A model generated the notes under the pieces. The model worked only from the letters and a program-made list of their open reading frames with translations. It did not search any database and was not told where the DNA came from. A stretch of DNA of 64,000 bases from Basidiobolus meristosporus CBS 931.73 (lineage: Eukaryota; Basidiobolomycota; Basidiobolomycetes; Basidiobolales; Basidiobolaceae): NCBI GenBank assembly GCA_002104905.1, contig MCFE01000035.1:141624-205623 (forward strand), in the 5' to 3' direction. This document shows positions 58,330 to 64,000 of this stretch, one piece after another. The translations under genes and the position numbers were made by a program. The number at the start of each line of letters is the position of its first letter. Position 1 is the first letter of the stretch.

Positions 58330-59336
58330 CTAGATTTTGCGAAAATATTCCAACTCTGCATCATCCCAACTAAAGAATTTTCCATGAAACTGGTCTGGAA
58401 CACCATCTCTCGCTAGCTTTGCGAGAACAAAACCAACTTCATCCGGTTTCACCAGAATGTTATTGTGTTTCATCGATACAAATCCATTGTAATCGTTTCT
58501 TGACATATGCTTGGATCCTACGGGAACAATTAGGCCTGTGTCAACCTGATAATCGCCGATTCACTCTAATTACCGGTTTCTCGAATCAAGCGTTGGAAAT
58601 CAGTGTCCACTGCGCCAGGATGAATGGCTGTACAGCGCACTTCAGGCTCCTCAATAGCTAGACAGTATGAGAACATATTCAACGCCGCCTTGGAGCTGCC
58701 AATCTATTAGATGCGTATCTAGTGTGATTTGGGGAGGGGTATAACTTACCAGCAATAAGCTGCCCATCCAGGAAATGCAATCATGGCTGCCCCTGAGCTA
58801 ACCATTACACAGTTTCCTCGGGATTTTCGAAGTTCAGGCAGTGCCTTCTGTACCAAGCTCACCACAGAGAAAAAATTCAGCTCAAACAAACTGCATATTC
58901 CAATGGCTAAATACAGTGCTGATAGACAGTGGCTTGAAATACACCCTACCTTCTCCATTCTGCTTCTTTGATGTCGGCTAGGCTTTTGATAGGGTCGATC
59001 ACTCTGATAAGGATAGGCATTTCAACATAGTTGGTAGGCACTCTAGTTCACCATATACAATACTAACCCTGCGTTTAGGATAATACTATCAATTCTACCA
59101 TGCTTCGCAATGGTGTGGCTTACAACTCGCTCCAAATCTTTCTCCAAAGCTAAATCCGCCACTATATAAGAGTAGTTTGCTGGAAAAGTGGTCTCAGCCT
59201 CTATAGTTCGTAGCAAATGTTCGGTACGTGCAACACTGACGACAAAGGCGCCTTGTTCTAGGGCTTCTAAAGTAACGGCACGCCCAATTCCCCTTGAAGC
59301 TCCTGTAACTACAATTACAGGAGGCAAGCTAGACAT
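58330..59336 (-). CDS. Short-chain dehydrogenase/reductase (sepiapterin-reductase-like)
   Basis: Five exons on the minus strand: 59336-59068, 59003-58950, 58890-58750, 58695-58574, 58517-58330. Total 774 nt (257 aa), standard for the family. The Rossmann cofactor loop is T-G-A-S-R-G-I-G-R (about 10-18), then N-A-G-V about 90. The catalytic Ser is in M-V-S-S-G-A-A and the Tyr/Lys pair is Y-C-C-S-K. H-P-G-A-V-D-T follows. The basic residues after the second strand (A-R-T) suggest NADP. The overall pattern, including the final K-P-D-E-V and G-K-F-F-S-W, resembles the yeast YIR035C/YIR036C and sepiapterin reductase group. The substrate cannot be inferred. It is the last conventional gene before the telomere. 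Confidence 0.9.
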
Positions 59337-60104
59337 GACTGCTCAGTCTCTACTGGAGATTGCTTAACACTTCAATGCGCAAGGGTAACAAGAAATTAGC
59401 AGGGAATGAAGGTGAGCTCGAGATTGGTATATATCGAAGAAGTCGATGATTAAGAAGAAAATATACTAAATAATGGGCCCTCACTCTTATAAAGGTCTGC
59501 GATGGAAGGTACAATGATAACCCTACAAGATCCCCATTCATCGATTTGCATCTTATAGGATGCAGGCTCGTGATACATCAATACAGGGTCGTAAATAATA
59601 CAATTGGTGAGTAATGAATGATGTCATGAGTATATAAATATAGCAATGAAGATATAATTAGTCGCCATGTGGAGCGAATAATGCTGATCGGGGACAAGGA
59701 GTATCTCATTTTAAGAGTAGATTATTAACGGCTTAATTTCCTTTCTTAACCTGGAAATATGGTGAAATAGTTTTCGTTTTTAGAATATTCAGGAAGATAT
59801 CACAGGATTCCTTCTGAACTGTTCTCAGCCTCAATCACTAGGGTTTCATTGTGGGCTCGTGCACTTGAACCTAAATCAACATCTTCAGCAAATAATCTCT
59901 GGCTTGAGTCTCACGTACAATGCTACTAAACGATCAACCAATCTCCATGCTTATACAGCATTCCACTGCTTGTATTGCGTTCATGGACAAAAGCGCTACT
60001 GTCATACCTAATATCGTAACTGTCCAATGGAAACCACTTCGGGTGTCTGAGCTTCAAGAGATCCATCTTGTTACACTATAAAAAACCACGCGATGAAGGC
60101 ACAT
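59337..60104. other. Last unique sequence before the telomeric retroelement array
   Basis: AT-rich upstream region of the dehydrogenase gene. Toward 60100 it has no gene or repeat. It ends at ...GCACAT, immediately followed by GGGTTAGGG, the first telomere-like seed. Confidence 0.5.
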
Positions 60105-61900
60105 GGGTTAGGGGGGGAGACAGTCACCAACAGGTGAAATCTTTATTTCAGTTGAAACAAAGAAGCCAGCGCTACTGTTGTAGCTTTGATACAAGAGTGT
60201 GTAGCTGAGGGGAATTTGTAGGTAAGTTAATAAGAAGTGATGATAGTTCTTCAGTGCTCAAGACACTGTTCAGTGGGAAGGGGGGTAGCAAGAGAGGTAA
60301 GAATGACTTGTGAACAACATTAATGAGGGGAATGTGATAAGGATTGATATTCATCATAAAGGGAGTGTGCTGCTGCAGATATTGCTGCCAAAGGTCTGTC
60401 AAGTACTTCAGGTAGGCCAGCTTGGGTTTTTCTGACTCCAGAATATAATGAGCAAACTTCTTGACTTCAGGATCTCCAAGTATAGTTCTCCAGCAGGAGC
60501 CAGGTGTTGTGTGGTGTGTTCTCTTCCAGGCCTTAATCAGTGGGTTGTTGCAGTTGTGAAGTCTGAGGTATAGTCTGGTTCTAAGGTAGAGAAGTCTGAT
60601 CTTATAGGGCATAAACCCAAAAGCACCAAGAATAGCATGTCTGTAGGGGCATTCAGGCAGATGAGGCACCAAGGAGGTAATGCACCATACGGCAAACTTG
60701 TCAAGCTTAGTGCAGTCTCTAGAAGTAAGAGAGAGAAGTGGTAAGCTAAATTCCAGGACAGGGAAGACAAACTGCTTGAGTAGAAGGAGGCAGCTGGGAG
60801 CTGAAGTTGTAGGAGGAGTAACAGCCAATAGCTTGTGGAGTGCCTGTCTTGCCAGGGTAATTCTCTTCTTCAGGTGTGCTGCAGAGTCTAGTCCAGTAGG
60901 AAGGAAAGGAAAGCCAAGATATGTGGCAGAAACCTGAGCAGGTAGAGTGGAGTTCTCCAAGTTGATGGGAGAGCCCAAAGGTACTGTCTTTGCAATGGAA
61001 AGCTGGAGATTATTCTTCTGCAGATACTGGTGGATGGTCTGGGAGTCTTGTTGCACATTGGAGGAGGATATTCTGATGTCATCAGCAAAGAGAGTAACCA
61101 GGCAGTCAGCTGAGAGTCTTGGGAAATCATTCAGGAAGATGGCAAACAGTATAGGACCAAGCACCGAGCCTTGAACCACTCCATTAGGAACTGAGAACAC
61201 AGCTGATTGCTCACTTGGGTGCAGAATTCTTGCTTGTGGATCCAGAAACAGAGACCTGACAAGGATGGTGAGAGAGGTACTGGAGAAGCATTGCAACTTG
61301 GACCAAAGCAGATTTCTGTCAACTGAATCAAAGGCCTTAGTAATATGAAACAGAACAGAGGGATACTTGCACTGGAGAGAGTGATCTTGGCTAAGTATGA
61401 CTGCATATTCCAAGGAGAGGCCAGGAACAAAGCCAAACTGTGCAGGATGAAACTTGAGGGAGTCAGAGTAGAGCTCCTGAGCAAGCAGAAGCTCAAACAC
61501 CTTTCTGCAGGTGGGCAGCAGAGATATTGGCCTGTAGGAGCTAGGATCCAGGTGCTTTCCTTTACCCTTGTACAGTGGCAGAACATTTGCAAAGGACCAT
61601 TCCTCAGGAGTAGAAAGCTGGGCTGAGCATTGCTGAAACAGTGGAAGCAGAAGTGCAGACATGGCCTTGGTACTAGTCTTCAGAAGCTCATAAGAGATTG
61701 TGTCCACACCTGGAGCAGTAGAGTTGGGAAGCCTCTTGAGCACATTATGGATTCTCCTTTTATCAAGTGCAAGTGGGATGGGCACAGTCTTGAAGTCAGG
61801 ATGAAAGCCAGGAGTTGAGTACTGCTTTGTAGAGAAGAAGATGTTAGCCAGCTGTTCTGTTGAAGGTAACTTCCTGGAAGAGGGCCTCATTGCCCTGTAG
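60105..61900 (-). mobile_element. Telomere-associated non-LTR retrotransposon, copy 1 (5'-truncated)
   Basis: On the minus strand this element runs from about 61900 to a 3' end at 60114. The 3' end reads AATAAAGATTTCACC, TGTT, GGTGACTG, then a C-run and TAACCC. On the plus strand the left border is GGGTTAGGGG and the right border is again AGGGTTAGGG. The coding part is only the reverse-transcriptase region and C-terminus; the expected endonuclease and 5' UTR are missing. There is no poly(A) tail and no target-site duplication. Copy 4 is nearly identical over about 1.27 kb. Confidence 0.85.
60172..61889 (-). pseudogene. Non-LTR reverse transcriptase ORF, 5'-truncated, catalytic Asp changed to His
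   Basis: About 570 codons are open, from M-R-P-S-S-R-K (61889) to the TAA at 60172. Reverse-transcriptase blocks appear in order: N-V-L-P-L-Y-K-G-K-G, Y-R-P-I-S-L-L-P, motif A, G-V-V-Q-G-S-V-L-G-P-I-L-F, motif C F-A-D-D, and L-Q-L-S-I-A-K-T. Motif A should read F-D-I-x-K-A-F; here it reads F-H-I-T-K-A-F, because the codon at 61345-61347 (minus strand) is CAT. Copy 4 has GAT at 63801-63803. The first metal-binding Asp is therefore lost and this copy should be inactive. After the RT is a Cys/His-poor C-terminal region of about 230 residues. No RNase H or endonuclease domain was recognised. The clade is uncertain. Confidence 0.85.
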
Positions 61901-62487
61901 AGGGTTAGGGGGAGGAAAGTCACCAAGTGGTGAAATCTTTATTTACTTATGACAAGTATCTAAAGAAGCCAAGTTAATCTGAAGTAATTCCTAGAAAGCT
62001 AGGTCTGAGAGATATCTTCCTGGTAAGCCAGGTCTGAGAGTTGAGAAGCTGAGTGGTACTATATTTCCTAGTTAGCTAGGTCTGAGAGAGGTTTCCTGGA
62101 AAGCCAGGCCTGAGAAGTGAGAATCTGAATATATCTGAGCTGAGAGAGGTTTCCTGGAAAGCCAGGCCTGAGAAGTGAGAATCTGAATATATCTGAGCTA
62201 AGTTATACTGGTTTGCGGTAGCTGAATTGTGGCCGGAATGGCCAGTAGACTGGGGGAACTGAGAGGAATTTCTGGGCGATCACTGGCCAAATTTACTAGG
62301 CAAATCTGGCCAATTAGCATTTCAAGGATTTCAGCCAATCAGAGCCTTTACTTTGCCCGATGGTTGATCAAGCCATCTCCCAATGAGCACACATCAATTT
62401 ATTAATCAAATTTTGCTGGATCCAGGATTTGAACCCACAACCATGGGTATGGAAGGGTTAGGGATAACCACAAGGCTAAGTGTTCTT
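61901..62487 (-). mobile_element. SINE-like element with tRNA-like head and LINE-type telomeric 3' tail
   Basis: About 585 bp between two GGTTAGGG seeds, minus orientation. The 5' end (about 62487-62415) has tRNA-like Pol III boxes: an A box TAGCCTTGTGG (62479-62469) and a B box GGTTCAAATCC (62435-62425), spaced as in a tRNA. The T-arm pairing is poor, so it is a tRNA relic rather than a tRNA gene. The body contains five tandem hairpins (61990-62166). The 3' end has AATAAAGATTTCACC, ACTT, GGTGACTT, a C-run and TAACCC, the same design as the adjoining LINE. It has no open frame. The shared tail suggests it is mobilised by the LINE reverse transcriptase. Confidence 0.75.
61990..62166 (-). repeat. 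Five tandem hairpin units inside the SINE-like element
   Basis: Each unit is a 5-bp stem and 4-nt loop. Starts: 61990 (CCTAG AAAG CTAGG), 62019 (CCTGG TAAG CCAGG), 62067 (CCTAG TTAG CTAGG), 62095 and 62153 (CCTGG AAAG CCAGG). Each is followed by TCTGAGA or CCTGAGA. The last two units are an almost exact 58-bp direct duplication. The fourth stem pair changes A-T to G-C together. Confidence 0.85.
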
Positions 62488-62560
62488 GGTTAGGGGAGGG
62501 AAAGTCACCAAGGTAGGTGAAATCTTTATTTGATTTCAGACAAGTCTAACTACAAATTTA
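62488..62560 (-). mobile_element. Retroelement 3'-end remnant (copy 3), about 70 bp
   Basis: It starts on the plus strand with GGTTAGGGGAGGGAAAG, followed by the family hairpin (TCACC AAGGTA GGTGA, 62505-62520) and AATCTTTATTTG. It then ends within 40 bp at ACAAATTTA, just before the next GGGTTAGGG. It is a severely 5'-truncated insertion of a LINE or SINE relative. Confidence 0.75.
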
Positions 62561-63852
62561 GGGTTAGGGGGGGAGACAGTCACCAACAGGTGAAATCTTT
62601 ATTTCAGTAGAAACAAAGAAGCCAGCGCTACTGTTGTAGCTTTGATACAAGAGTGTGTAGCTGAGGGGAATTTGTTGGTAAGTTAATAAGAAGTGATGAT
62701 AGTTCTTCAGTGCTCAAGACACTGTTCAGTGGGAAGGGGGGTAGCAAGAGAGGTAAGAATGACTTGTGAACAACATTAATGAGGGGAATGTGATAAGGAT
62801 TGATATTCATCATAAAGGGAGTGTGCTGCTGCAGATATTGCTGCCAAAGGTCTGTCAAGTACTTCAGGTAGGCCAGCTTGGGTTTTTCTGACTGCAGAAT
62901 ATAGTGAGCAAACTTCTTGACTTCAGGATCTCCAAGTATAGTTCTCCAGCAGGAGTCAGGTGTAGTGTGGTGTGTTCTCTTCCAGGCCTTAATCAGTGGG
63001 TTGTTGCAGTTGTGAAGTCTGAGGTATAATCTGGTTCTAAGGTAGAGAAGTCTGATCTTATAGGGCATAAACCCAAAAGCACCAAGAATAGCATGTCTGT
63101 AGGGGCATTCAGGCAAATGAGGCACCAAGGAGGTAATGCACCATACTGCAAACTTGTCAAGCTTAGTGCAGTCTCTAGAAGTAAGAGAGAGAATTGGTAA
63201 GCCAAATTCCAGGACAGGGAAGACAAACTGCTTGAGTAGAAGGAGGCAGCTGGGAGCTGAAGTTGTAGGAGGAGTAACAGCCAGTAGCTTGTGGAGTGCC
63301 TGTCTTGCCAGGATAATTCTCTTCCTCAGATGTGCTCCAGAGTCTAGTCCAGTAGGAAGGAAAGGAAAGCCAAGATATGTAGCAGAAACCTGAGCAGGTA
63401 GAGTGGAGTTCTCCAAGTTGATGGGAGTGCCCAAAGGTACTGTCTTTGCAATGGAAAGCTGGAGATTATTCTTCTGCAGATACTGGTGGATGGTCTGGGA
63501 GTCTTGTTGCACATTGGAGGAGGATATTCTGATGTCATCAGCAAAGAGAGTAACCAGGCAGTCAGCTGAGAGTCTTGGGAAATCATTCAGGAAGATGGCA
63601 AACAGTATAGGACCAAGCACAGAGCCTTGAACCACTCCATTAGGAACTGAGAACACAGCTGATTGCTCACTTGGGTGCAGAATTCTTGCTTGTGGATCCA
63701 GAAACAGAGACCTGACAAGGAGGGTGAGAGAGGTACTGGAGAAGCATTGCAACTTGGACCAAAGCAGATTTCTGTCAACTGAATCAAAGGCCTTAGTAAT
63801 ATCAAACAGAACAGAGGGATACTTGCACTGGAGAGAGTGATCTTGGCTAAGT
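62561..63852 (-). mobile_element. Telomere-associated non-LTR retrotransposon, copy 4, capped by the telomere
   Basis: Minus orientation. The 3' end is at 62570 next to GGGTTAGGGG, with the same AATAAA, hairpin and C-run as copy 1. It is nearly identical to copy 1 for about 1.27 kb. The reverse-transcriptase frame is open from about 63850 to its TAA at 62628 and keeps motif A F-D-I-T-K-A-F and F-A-D-D. It is cut within the RT upstream of motif A, at GGCTAAGTA, where telomere repeats begin. It therefore lacks the N-terminal half and cannot be autonomous. Confidence 0.88.
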
Positions 63853-64000
63853 AGGGTTAGTAGGTTAGGGTTAGGGTTAGGGTTAGGGTTAGGGTTAGGG
63901 TTAGGGTTAGGGTTAGGGTTAGGGTTAGGGTTAGGTTAGGGTTAGGGTTAGGGTTAGGGTTAGGGTTAGGGTTAGGGTTAGGGTTAGGGTTAGGGTTAGG
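63853..64000 (+). repeat. Telomere, (TTAGGG)n
   Basis: About 24 repeats of TTAGGG on the plus strand up to the window end, so this is the right-hand chromosome end. The first two units are imperfect (GGGTTAG, TAGG, TTAGGG). One 5-nt TTAGG variant lies at about 63930. Confidence 0.97.

Follow-up and report, generated by a model that had tools for sequence, protein, structure and literature searches.

Candidate telomere-attaching non-LTR retroelements stacked at a contig end of Basidiobolus meristosporus

The stretch of DNA analyzed here, referred to as the window, consists of 64,000 nucleotides from the fungus Basidiobolus meristosporus CBS 931.73. It belongs to contig MCFE01000035.1 (C591 in our numbering, 205,623 bases), the end of which coincides with position 64000 of the window. 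The terminal 3.9 kb (60105-64000) contain four retroelement copies, all in a single orientation and with the 3' ends of their RNAs directed inwards. From the tip towards the inside the order is: a TTAGGG array, a truncated long interspersed nuclear element (LINE), the tail of an element here called family C, a full-length element resembling a short interspersed nuclear element (SINE), a further truncated LINE, and the subtelomeric flank. A previous inspection of the letters (the original prediction) had proposed four copies of one element in this arrangement, with TTAGGG repeats beyond the last one: number of copies, shared orientation, inward 3' ends and cap all proved correct, while the idea of a single element had to be abandoned. 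Three families are represented instead, the LINE by the first and fourth copies, counting outwards, the SINE-like element by the second, and family C, an ORF1-only element whose longer copies code for nothing but a protein resembling that of the first open reading frame (ORF1) of the LINE, by the third.

All four copies lie on the minus strand. LINE copy 1 (60105-61901) extends from its RNA 3' end at 60105 to its truncated 5' side at 61901 and, with about 1.8 kb out of the 4.5-4.6 kb typical of long copies, corresponds to reference coordinates 1-1792, at 99% identity. The C-terminal part of its second open reading frame (ORF2), containing the RVT_1 reverse transcriptase domain (PF00078, E 1.6e-23), spans 60172-61901 on the same strand, the open frame extending to 61938, into the SINE-like element. 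The latter (61902-62487) is full length, and no long frame of its own was noted; close to its 5' end, and on the same strand, are found sequences similar to the B-box (GGTTCAAATCC, 62425-62435) and to the A-box (TAGCCTTGTGG, 62468-62478) of RNA polymerase III (pol III) promoters, judged by what we take to be the consensus of these boxes. Family C is present as a 3' tail fragment of 70 nt (62488-62557), and LINE copy 2, about 1.3 kb long and also 5'-truncated, occupies 62567-63853 (reference coordinates 1-1287, 99%). The terminal TTAGGG array, on the plus strand at 63852-64000, caps LINE copy 2 and ends C591.

On the plus strand, the RNA 3' ends are found at 60105, 61902 and 62488, as first placed, the fourth falling at about 62558-62567, a range which includes the single position, 62561, given earlier. 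TTAGGG is present at each element start (60108, 61905, 62490, and both 62558 and 62564): a seed, GGGTTAGGGGGGG (60105-60117), connects the 3' end of LINE copy 1 to the subtelomere, and another one, TTAGGGTTAGGGGGGG (62558-62573), joins the family C fragment to LINE copy 2. Each copy features, near its 3' end, a hairpin of the UCACC-loop-GGUGA type, located at 60124-60137 (LINE copy 1, minus strand), 61920-61933, 62505-62520 and 62580-62593. No poly(A) was seen by eye at the window copies, in agreement with the original prediction, and the question of a target-site duplication does not arise, since the copies directly adjoin one another, the cap or, for the first one, the subtelomere on a single side. 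The tail pattern has no match in window positions 1-60000, and the three reference families have no BLAST match in positions 1-60100. The subtelomeric flank (58605-60104) has a sole long match elsewhere in the genome, 73% identical, and a search with the flank for alternative end states of the same chromosome produced only matches of 78% identity or less.

The whole assembly comprises 89.0 Mb in 1311 contigs. LINE copies were matched against a chimeric reference of 4528 nt. Most examined segments are 97-100% identical to it, along with a few older ones ranging from 71 to 96%. ORF1 contains a zinc-like CPNC...CKC motif and is separated from the in-frame ORF2 by UGA CUA in all six copies covering the site (L003:4338-4340, minus strand, and likewise in L004, L006, L007, L076 and L078, each with a single UGA); UGA followed by CUA is presumably a context favouring stop-codon readthrough. 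Within ORF2, Pfam recognizes only RVT_1 (E 2.6e-25) and a stretch similar to apurinic endonucleases (APE-like; PF14529, E 3.5e-4, under the curated cut-off). This stretch keeps the Asn, Tyr, Asp-x-Asn, Asp and Ser-Asp-His positions, which we take to be the catalytic ones of APE enzymes. The usual catalytic Glu is an Asp in all three members of the family covering the site, versus Glu in 27 out of 27 other homologs having a letter there, in a comparison of 31 homologs chosen from 120 listed, 28 of them outside the LINE family. Modelling of ORF2 with AlphaFold, based on six sequences, gave a poor result (mean predicted local distance difference test score 49.6), and a PDB profile search with the endonuclease part returned two matches (E 1.1 and 1.8).

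Featuring an ORF with RVT_1, 5' truncations and a common 3' end, the first and fourth copies of the window belong, as judged from sequence, to a LINE without long terminal repeats (non-LTR), which encodes a reverse transcriptase and a putative endonuclease of the APE type. Other assignments were considered. The CRE clade (MoTeR, FoTeR, Cnl1) is excluded by the lack of a CCHC pattern in ORF2 and by its domain content; loss of the endonuclease, by the conservation of all presumed catalytic positions save for the Glu to Asp change. Matches to solved structures include LINE-1 ORF2 and, together with the APE-like domain, tentatively speak against a Penelope-like element, described as having a PLE-type reverse transcriptase without endonuclease. 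The behavior of SART and TRAS (R1 clade), namely insertion inside long arrays and poly(A), was not recognized either: tracts between elements are 3-23 nt long, and no poly(A) was seen.

The SINE-like element, 524-586 nt in length, bears the A-box-like and B-box-like motifs described above towards its 5' end; ARAGORN found no tRNA in it, and Rfam no match. Family C elements are about 1.0-1.1 kb long and begin with tandem 101-bp repeats, the number of which varies from one to about a dozen per copy (C351, C505, C561, C110 and others). They encode a protein of 242 amino acids, with no domain recognized by Pfam, which is 30% identical to LINE ORF1 in the C-terminal part of the latter (pairwise E 1e-22). 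A relative of this protein is listed for B. ranarum, a listing compatible with either a gag-only or a full-element origin.

All three families, and a fourth tail, terminate with the UCACC-loop-GGUGA hairpin and, beyond it, a C-rich UAACC end. Out of 200 shuffles, those folding at least as well as the natural sequence were 2 for the LINE tail, 13 for the SINE-like one, 9 for family C and 2 for the fourth tail. This last family (GATCATCACC..GGTGA) occurs within the same arrays (L002, reversed, around 3505; L077, around 2496); its body resembles family C by eye, and may be another ORF1-only element. Because the tail is shared, we infer that the SINE-like and the ORF1-only RNAs use the LINE enzyme. 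At the opposite end, a TTAGGG-like stretch is found close to the 5' terminus in each family: TTAGGGTTAGGG in the 5' untranslated region of the LINE (L079:1297-1308), GGGTTAGGG in the SINE head (window 62458-62463) and GGGTTAGG in a 5' repeat of family C (L078). These are possible candidates for a telomerase seed or binding site.

Substitution patterns indicate that ORF2 and the ORF1-only frame are both under purifying selection. For ORF2, the nonsynonymous/synonymous ratio is 0.46 over 28 pieces (102 synonymous and 146 nonsynonymous distinct changes; Fisher p 8e-10), having been 0.76 with 32 pieces, four of which lie partly or wholly outside ORF2 and were dropped. For the ORF1-only frame, five copies, one of them with a 1-nt deletion, compared to a reference copy give 0.34 (31 synonymous, 36 nonsynonymous; p 1e-5), a figure rising to 0.63 if the decayed copy L003 is included. 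Three frames of the SINE-like element, used as controls, range from 0.77 to 1.30, none being significant.

In the contigs as stored, the telomere is mostly at the right-hand end, and the elements show the same strand bias: exact counts on the two contig strands are 6978 and 73 for (TTAGGG)5, 588 and 43 for the LINE tail, 357 and 19 for the SINE tail. Orientation was scored relative to the nearer contig end, for the first 100 listed of the 631 LINE tails, 40 of which fall in 24 contigs of at least 40 kb. In these large contigs all 40 tails have the 5' end of the element towards the nearer contig end and lie within 20 kb of it, 35 within 10 kb; over all contig sizes, 91 out of 100 are so directed. 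LINE bodies behave similarly (of 794 candidates 40 were scored, including that of the window), 33 of the 34 in large contigs being oriented towards the nearer end and 32 located within 20 kb. The same holds for SINE tails (21/21 in large contigs, 56/60 over all sizes; 60 scored among 100 listed of 376) and for family C (6/6 and 11/11, respectively; 11 scored of 42 listed places). LINE and SINE tails occur together in 33 contigs, always on one strand; C291, having LINE tails at both ends, was excluded from this count. As a whole, 108 of 109 matched segments follow the majority orientation of their locus, some possibly counted twice in overlapping loci. Conversely, 11 of 12 telomere-capped ends carry an element, ten with an exact LINE or SINE tail and one, C47, with a directly capped LINE; these twelve are the first contigs listed with a perfect 162-nt telomere array, not a random sample. 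The genome-wide picture anticipated by the original prediction, i.e. copies close to contig ends, in one orientation and with telomeric 3' junctions, was thus found for the copies examined.

Two internal arrays are found, one in C558 (at about 95-99 kb) and one in C726 (at about 55-60 kb); on or close to the distal side of each lies sequence corresponding, in inverted orientation, to the proximal flank of another end. The flank matches are 99.4% to L003 over 502 nt and 97.4% to L062 over 538 nt, and their arrangement suggests, at the sequence level, old end-to-end fusions. A terminal deletion, considered upon comparison of the C558 and C236 flanks, was discarded, the common stretch being family C sequence.

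TTAGGG occurs within 25 nt at 97 of 116 distinct 3' junctions, compared to 2 of 2399 control 25-mers taken from window positions 1-60000; the 116 include at least one chance match within an element, with no true tail. Neighboring elements form 66 pairs, 53 of which are separated by no more than 60 nt. In 50 of these close pairs the next element begins at its own 3' end, and in none is the proximal element resumed beyond it, which excludes insertion into pre-existing elements. Proximal elements are truncated in 39 pairs and full length, by comparison with the reference length, in 14. At 35 truncated junctions telomere-phase tracts measure 3-23 nt, with a median of 6, so that frequent 5' truncations and short seeds, both part of the original prediction, are borne out. 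Microhomology with the truncated element reaches at least 2 nt in 16 of the 35 junctions, versus 19% in simulations, and at least 3 nt in 10, versus 6%. Terminal arrays of 136-233 nt are present at 11 loci, corresponding to 10 ends, as two loci represent one end. A TERT RNA-binding domain was identified in C880, in two stretches, one of which has an internal stop codon.

With a probability of roughly 70%, we regard the end of C591 as a stack of telomere-attaching non-LTR retroelements, whose RNAs would be reverse-transcribed onto exposed G-strand ends, subsequently re-capped by telomerase. The LINE, probably of the APE type, would provide the reverse transcriptase, and its enzyme would recognize the 3'-terminal hairpin and UAACC-type end common to LINE, ORF1-only and SINE-like RNAs. 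A chromosome end deprived of its telomere tract, or left with a few bases of it, would expose a G-strand 3' end able to anneal, through a few bases, to the 3' end of the RNA and to prime cDNA synthesis, the cDNA becoming the new chromosome end. Early stop of reverse transcription, or later erosion, would often leave a 5'-truncated copy; the exposed end would receive TTAGGG from telomerase, and a shortened seed would be the starting point of the following round. End priming and re-capping fit the data because junctions are one-sided, seeds are short, truncation points vary, and microhomology is found. Pairing of the G-strand 3' end with UAACCC, as originally proposed, agrees with the junctions and with the excess of microhomologies of at least 2 nt, from which we infer priming. 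Healing by telomerase, the other half of that proposal, is indirectly suggested by the TERT domain and by the arrays of 136-233 nt capping the last element.

Several observations weigh against this interpretation. TTAGGG is missing from 19 of the 116 junctions, 11 having only TAGGG and 8 neither; moreover, where a junction has just one TTAGGG, the RNA of the element itself may have been its template, longer tracts alone pointing independently to telomere. Microhomology of at least 1 nt (19/35) is near the simulated 47%, and 10 of the 35 truncated junctions carry 1-13 unmatched bases ahead of the telomeric tract. Priming at G-strand ends is compatible with the junction data rather than proven by them. 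As to location, 9 of 100 LINE and 4 of 60 SINE tails are not directed towards the nearer end, all of them in contigs shorter than 20 kb; two of the 34 LINE bodies in large contigs are internal (C558 and C726); and in one capped end, C58, the last 2.9 kb contain nothing that matches the references. Since contigs often stop at repeats, location at an end is, by itself, weak evidence, the weight being carried by orientation. Among ORF1-only copies, the decayed L003 contains stops and indels, and L002 a 1-nt deletion. Finally, retention of the endonuclease domain, save for the Glu to Asp change, argues that nicking matters.

This last point leads to the alternative that survives best, although we consider it unlikely: the LINE endonuclease would cut the G-strand within, or at the base of, a telomeric array, reverse transcription would start from the nick, and the short distal part would be lost or replaced, in a way resembling MoTeR, FoTeR and SART1. 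Since the LINE retains a recognizable APE-like endonuclease, with the presumed catalytic Asn, Tyr, Asp-x-Asn, Asp and Ser-Asp-His positions, nicking within a very short telomeric tract is conceivable. Random nicks in arrays of about 23-39 repeats would, however, leave proximal tracts longer than the observed median, and the replacement of the catalytic Glu, confined to this family in our comparison, also weighs against this alternative. Known telomeric elements provide arguments on both sides: target-primed integration is argued for by the authors describing FoTeR (PMC12857005), and MoTeR insertion is reported to leave interstitial telomere tracts (PMC7367193), but SART1 is reported to require at least 3 repeats (PMC7265360), the seeds here mostly measuring about one repeat.

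A second possibility is that chromosome ends pass ready-made arrays to one another, through recombination or break-induced replication, retrotransposition events proper being few. The inverted flanks of C558 and C726 are what is expected of end-to-end fusion or exchange, and MoTeR ends are described as rearranging likewise (PMC7367193). Truncation points and junctions vary, however, from locus to locus (116 distinct junctions, 53 pairs), and the purifying selection seen in ORF2 and in the frame of the ORF1-only element implies coding masters that are recurrently active; we consider this explanation improbable. Still less credit is given to template jumping, whereby a single priming event would copy several RNAs serially, and the TTAGGG between elements would derive from RNA 3' ends and not from telomerase: full-length SINEs repeatedly adjoin only GGTTA, followed by the next tail, and tracts between elements are about one repeat long, as this model predicts, but some tracts reach 17-23 nt, exceeding one repeat, and truncated copies prevail (39/53). 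That repeats merely pile up at contig ends by breaking the assembly, as its 1311 contigs and the at least three contigs stopping inside a LINE without TTAGGG (C236, C3, C1257) might suggest, can practically be dismissed in view of the uniform orientation towards the end, the TTAGGG caps past the last element and the presence of an element at 11 of 12 capped ends.

The closest architectural match to the Basidiobolus stacks is the array formed in Drosophila, which lacks telomerase, by HeT-A, TART and TAHRE, where gag-only elements lie beside reverse-transcriptase-bearing ones in head-to-tail order on chromosome ends. Head-to-tail arrays with 3' ends inwards are found in Basidiobolus, too. In contrast, Basidiobolus has telomeric seeds, TTAGGG caps, a TERT RNA-binding domain and an additional SINE-like member, and a replacement of telomerase as in Drosophila was discarded, given the predicted TERT domain and the caps. 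Borrowing of a LINE 3' hairpin by a SINE resembles the LINE/SINE pairs that have a stringent 3' tail in common, for example UnaL2/UnaSINE of eels; such pairs insert at many genomic sites, whereas the Basidiobolus SINE-like element is near contig ends in the places examined. The endonuclease of Bombyx mori SART1 and TRAS1 is of the APE type, and these are telomeric LINEs with an endonuclease in ORF2, an arrangement that the putative endonuclease of the Basidiobolus LINE would match. Annealing of telomere-like RNA has been proposed for them (PMC7265360), as it is here; SART1 is described as inserting inside arrays, with a need for at least 3 repeats and the use of poly(A) (PMC7265360), and telomeric SART1/TRAS1 copies are reported to be full length (PMC4700185). 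In Basidiobolus, by contrast, tracts are short, no poly(A) was seen and truncated copies are common.

Fungal telomere-associated elements are the other obvious term of comparison. MoTeR1 and MoTeR2 of Magnaporthe oryzae are described as having their 5' ends directed to the telomere; truncated copies occur, as do internal relics and short interstitial tracts of TTAGGG, and the second element has the same 3' end as MoTeR1 (PMC7367193). The species is reported to have telomerase (PMC8381367). All these traits, including a partner sharing the 3' end and a telomerase-like gene, are paralleled in Basidiobolus. However, MoTeR1 is reported to carry a C-terminal restriction-like endonuclease and to group with CRE elements (PMC12857005), while in the Basidiobolus LINE the APE-like domain is N-terminal and ORF2 lacks a CCHC motif, and its partners are ORF1-only and SINE-like elements. 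FoTeR of Fusarium oxysporum, also described with its 5' end outwards, has 5' tandem repeats (PMC12857005) resembling the 101-bp repeats of family C. FoTeR and Cnl1 of Cryptococcus are likewise fungal and telomere-associated, but are placed with MoTeR in the restriction-like endonuclease clade (PMC12857005), the Basidiobolus endonuclease being APE-like. The 3' side of FoTeR typically shows, according to the same source, 3-7 telomere repeats, compared to a median of about one repeat here. Basidiobolales genomes are described as rich in transposable elements in one of two reviews (PMC10386755, PMC8588673).

Telomeric LINEs of fungi are thus a known kind, those described so far in the literature searched belonging to one clade, with restriction-like endonucleases; what is new is an element, probably of the APE type, with ORF1-only and SINE-like partners. 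Our literature search found no published description of an APE-type telomeric element with such partners, and no paper on Basidiobolus telomere elements; nor was a telomeric SINE, or a gag-only telomere element outside flies, noticed in the parts of the literature it covered. To our knowledge, gag-only telomere elements are known only from flies. Tentatively, and with somewhat more doubt than confidence, the three families may be viewed as an end-maintenance consortium of the HeT-A/TART kind, built convergently on top of telomerase, in which an APE-type LINE, a gag-only element and a telomere-confined SINE would share one hairpin-UAACC tail and one enzyme. If this were true, the SINE would be the first known to live by telomere attachment, and family C the first gag-only telomere element outside flies, as far as the literature searched shows, and the system would be a natural intermediate linking telomerase-based to retrotransposon-based telomeres. 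A telomerase-like gene, together with elements at 11 of 12 examined capped ends, would show retroelements sharing end maintenance with telomerase, and the transition to telomerase-free telomeres would become testable in a culturable fungus.

A few minor observations concern chromosome ends and neighboring genes. The 7051 genome-wide matches to (TTAGGG)5, of which three fully listed arrays contain 21, 22 and 36, suggest a few hundred telomeric contig ends, hence many small chromosomes or many alternative end states. In C217 (L069), a contig of 13.8 kb, a helicase-like frame, recognized by its motif by eye and reminiscent of telomere-linked helicase genes, lies with another large frame beside an element array. 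In the window itself, about 0.8 kb inside the first element, a candidate gene resembling short-chain dehydrogenases was recognized, by eye only, at 58400-59340.

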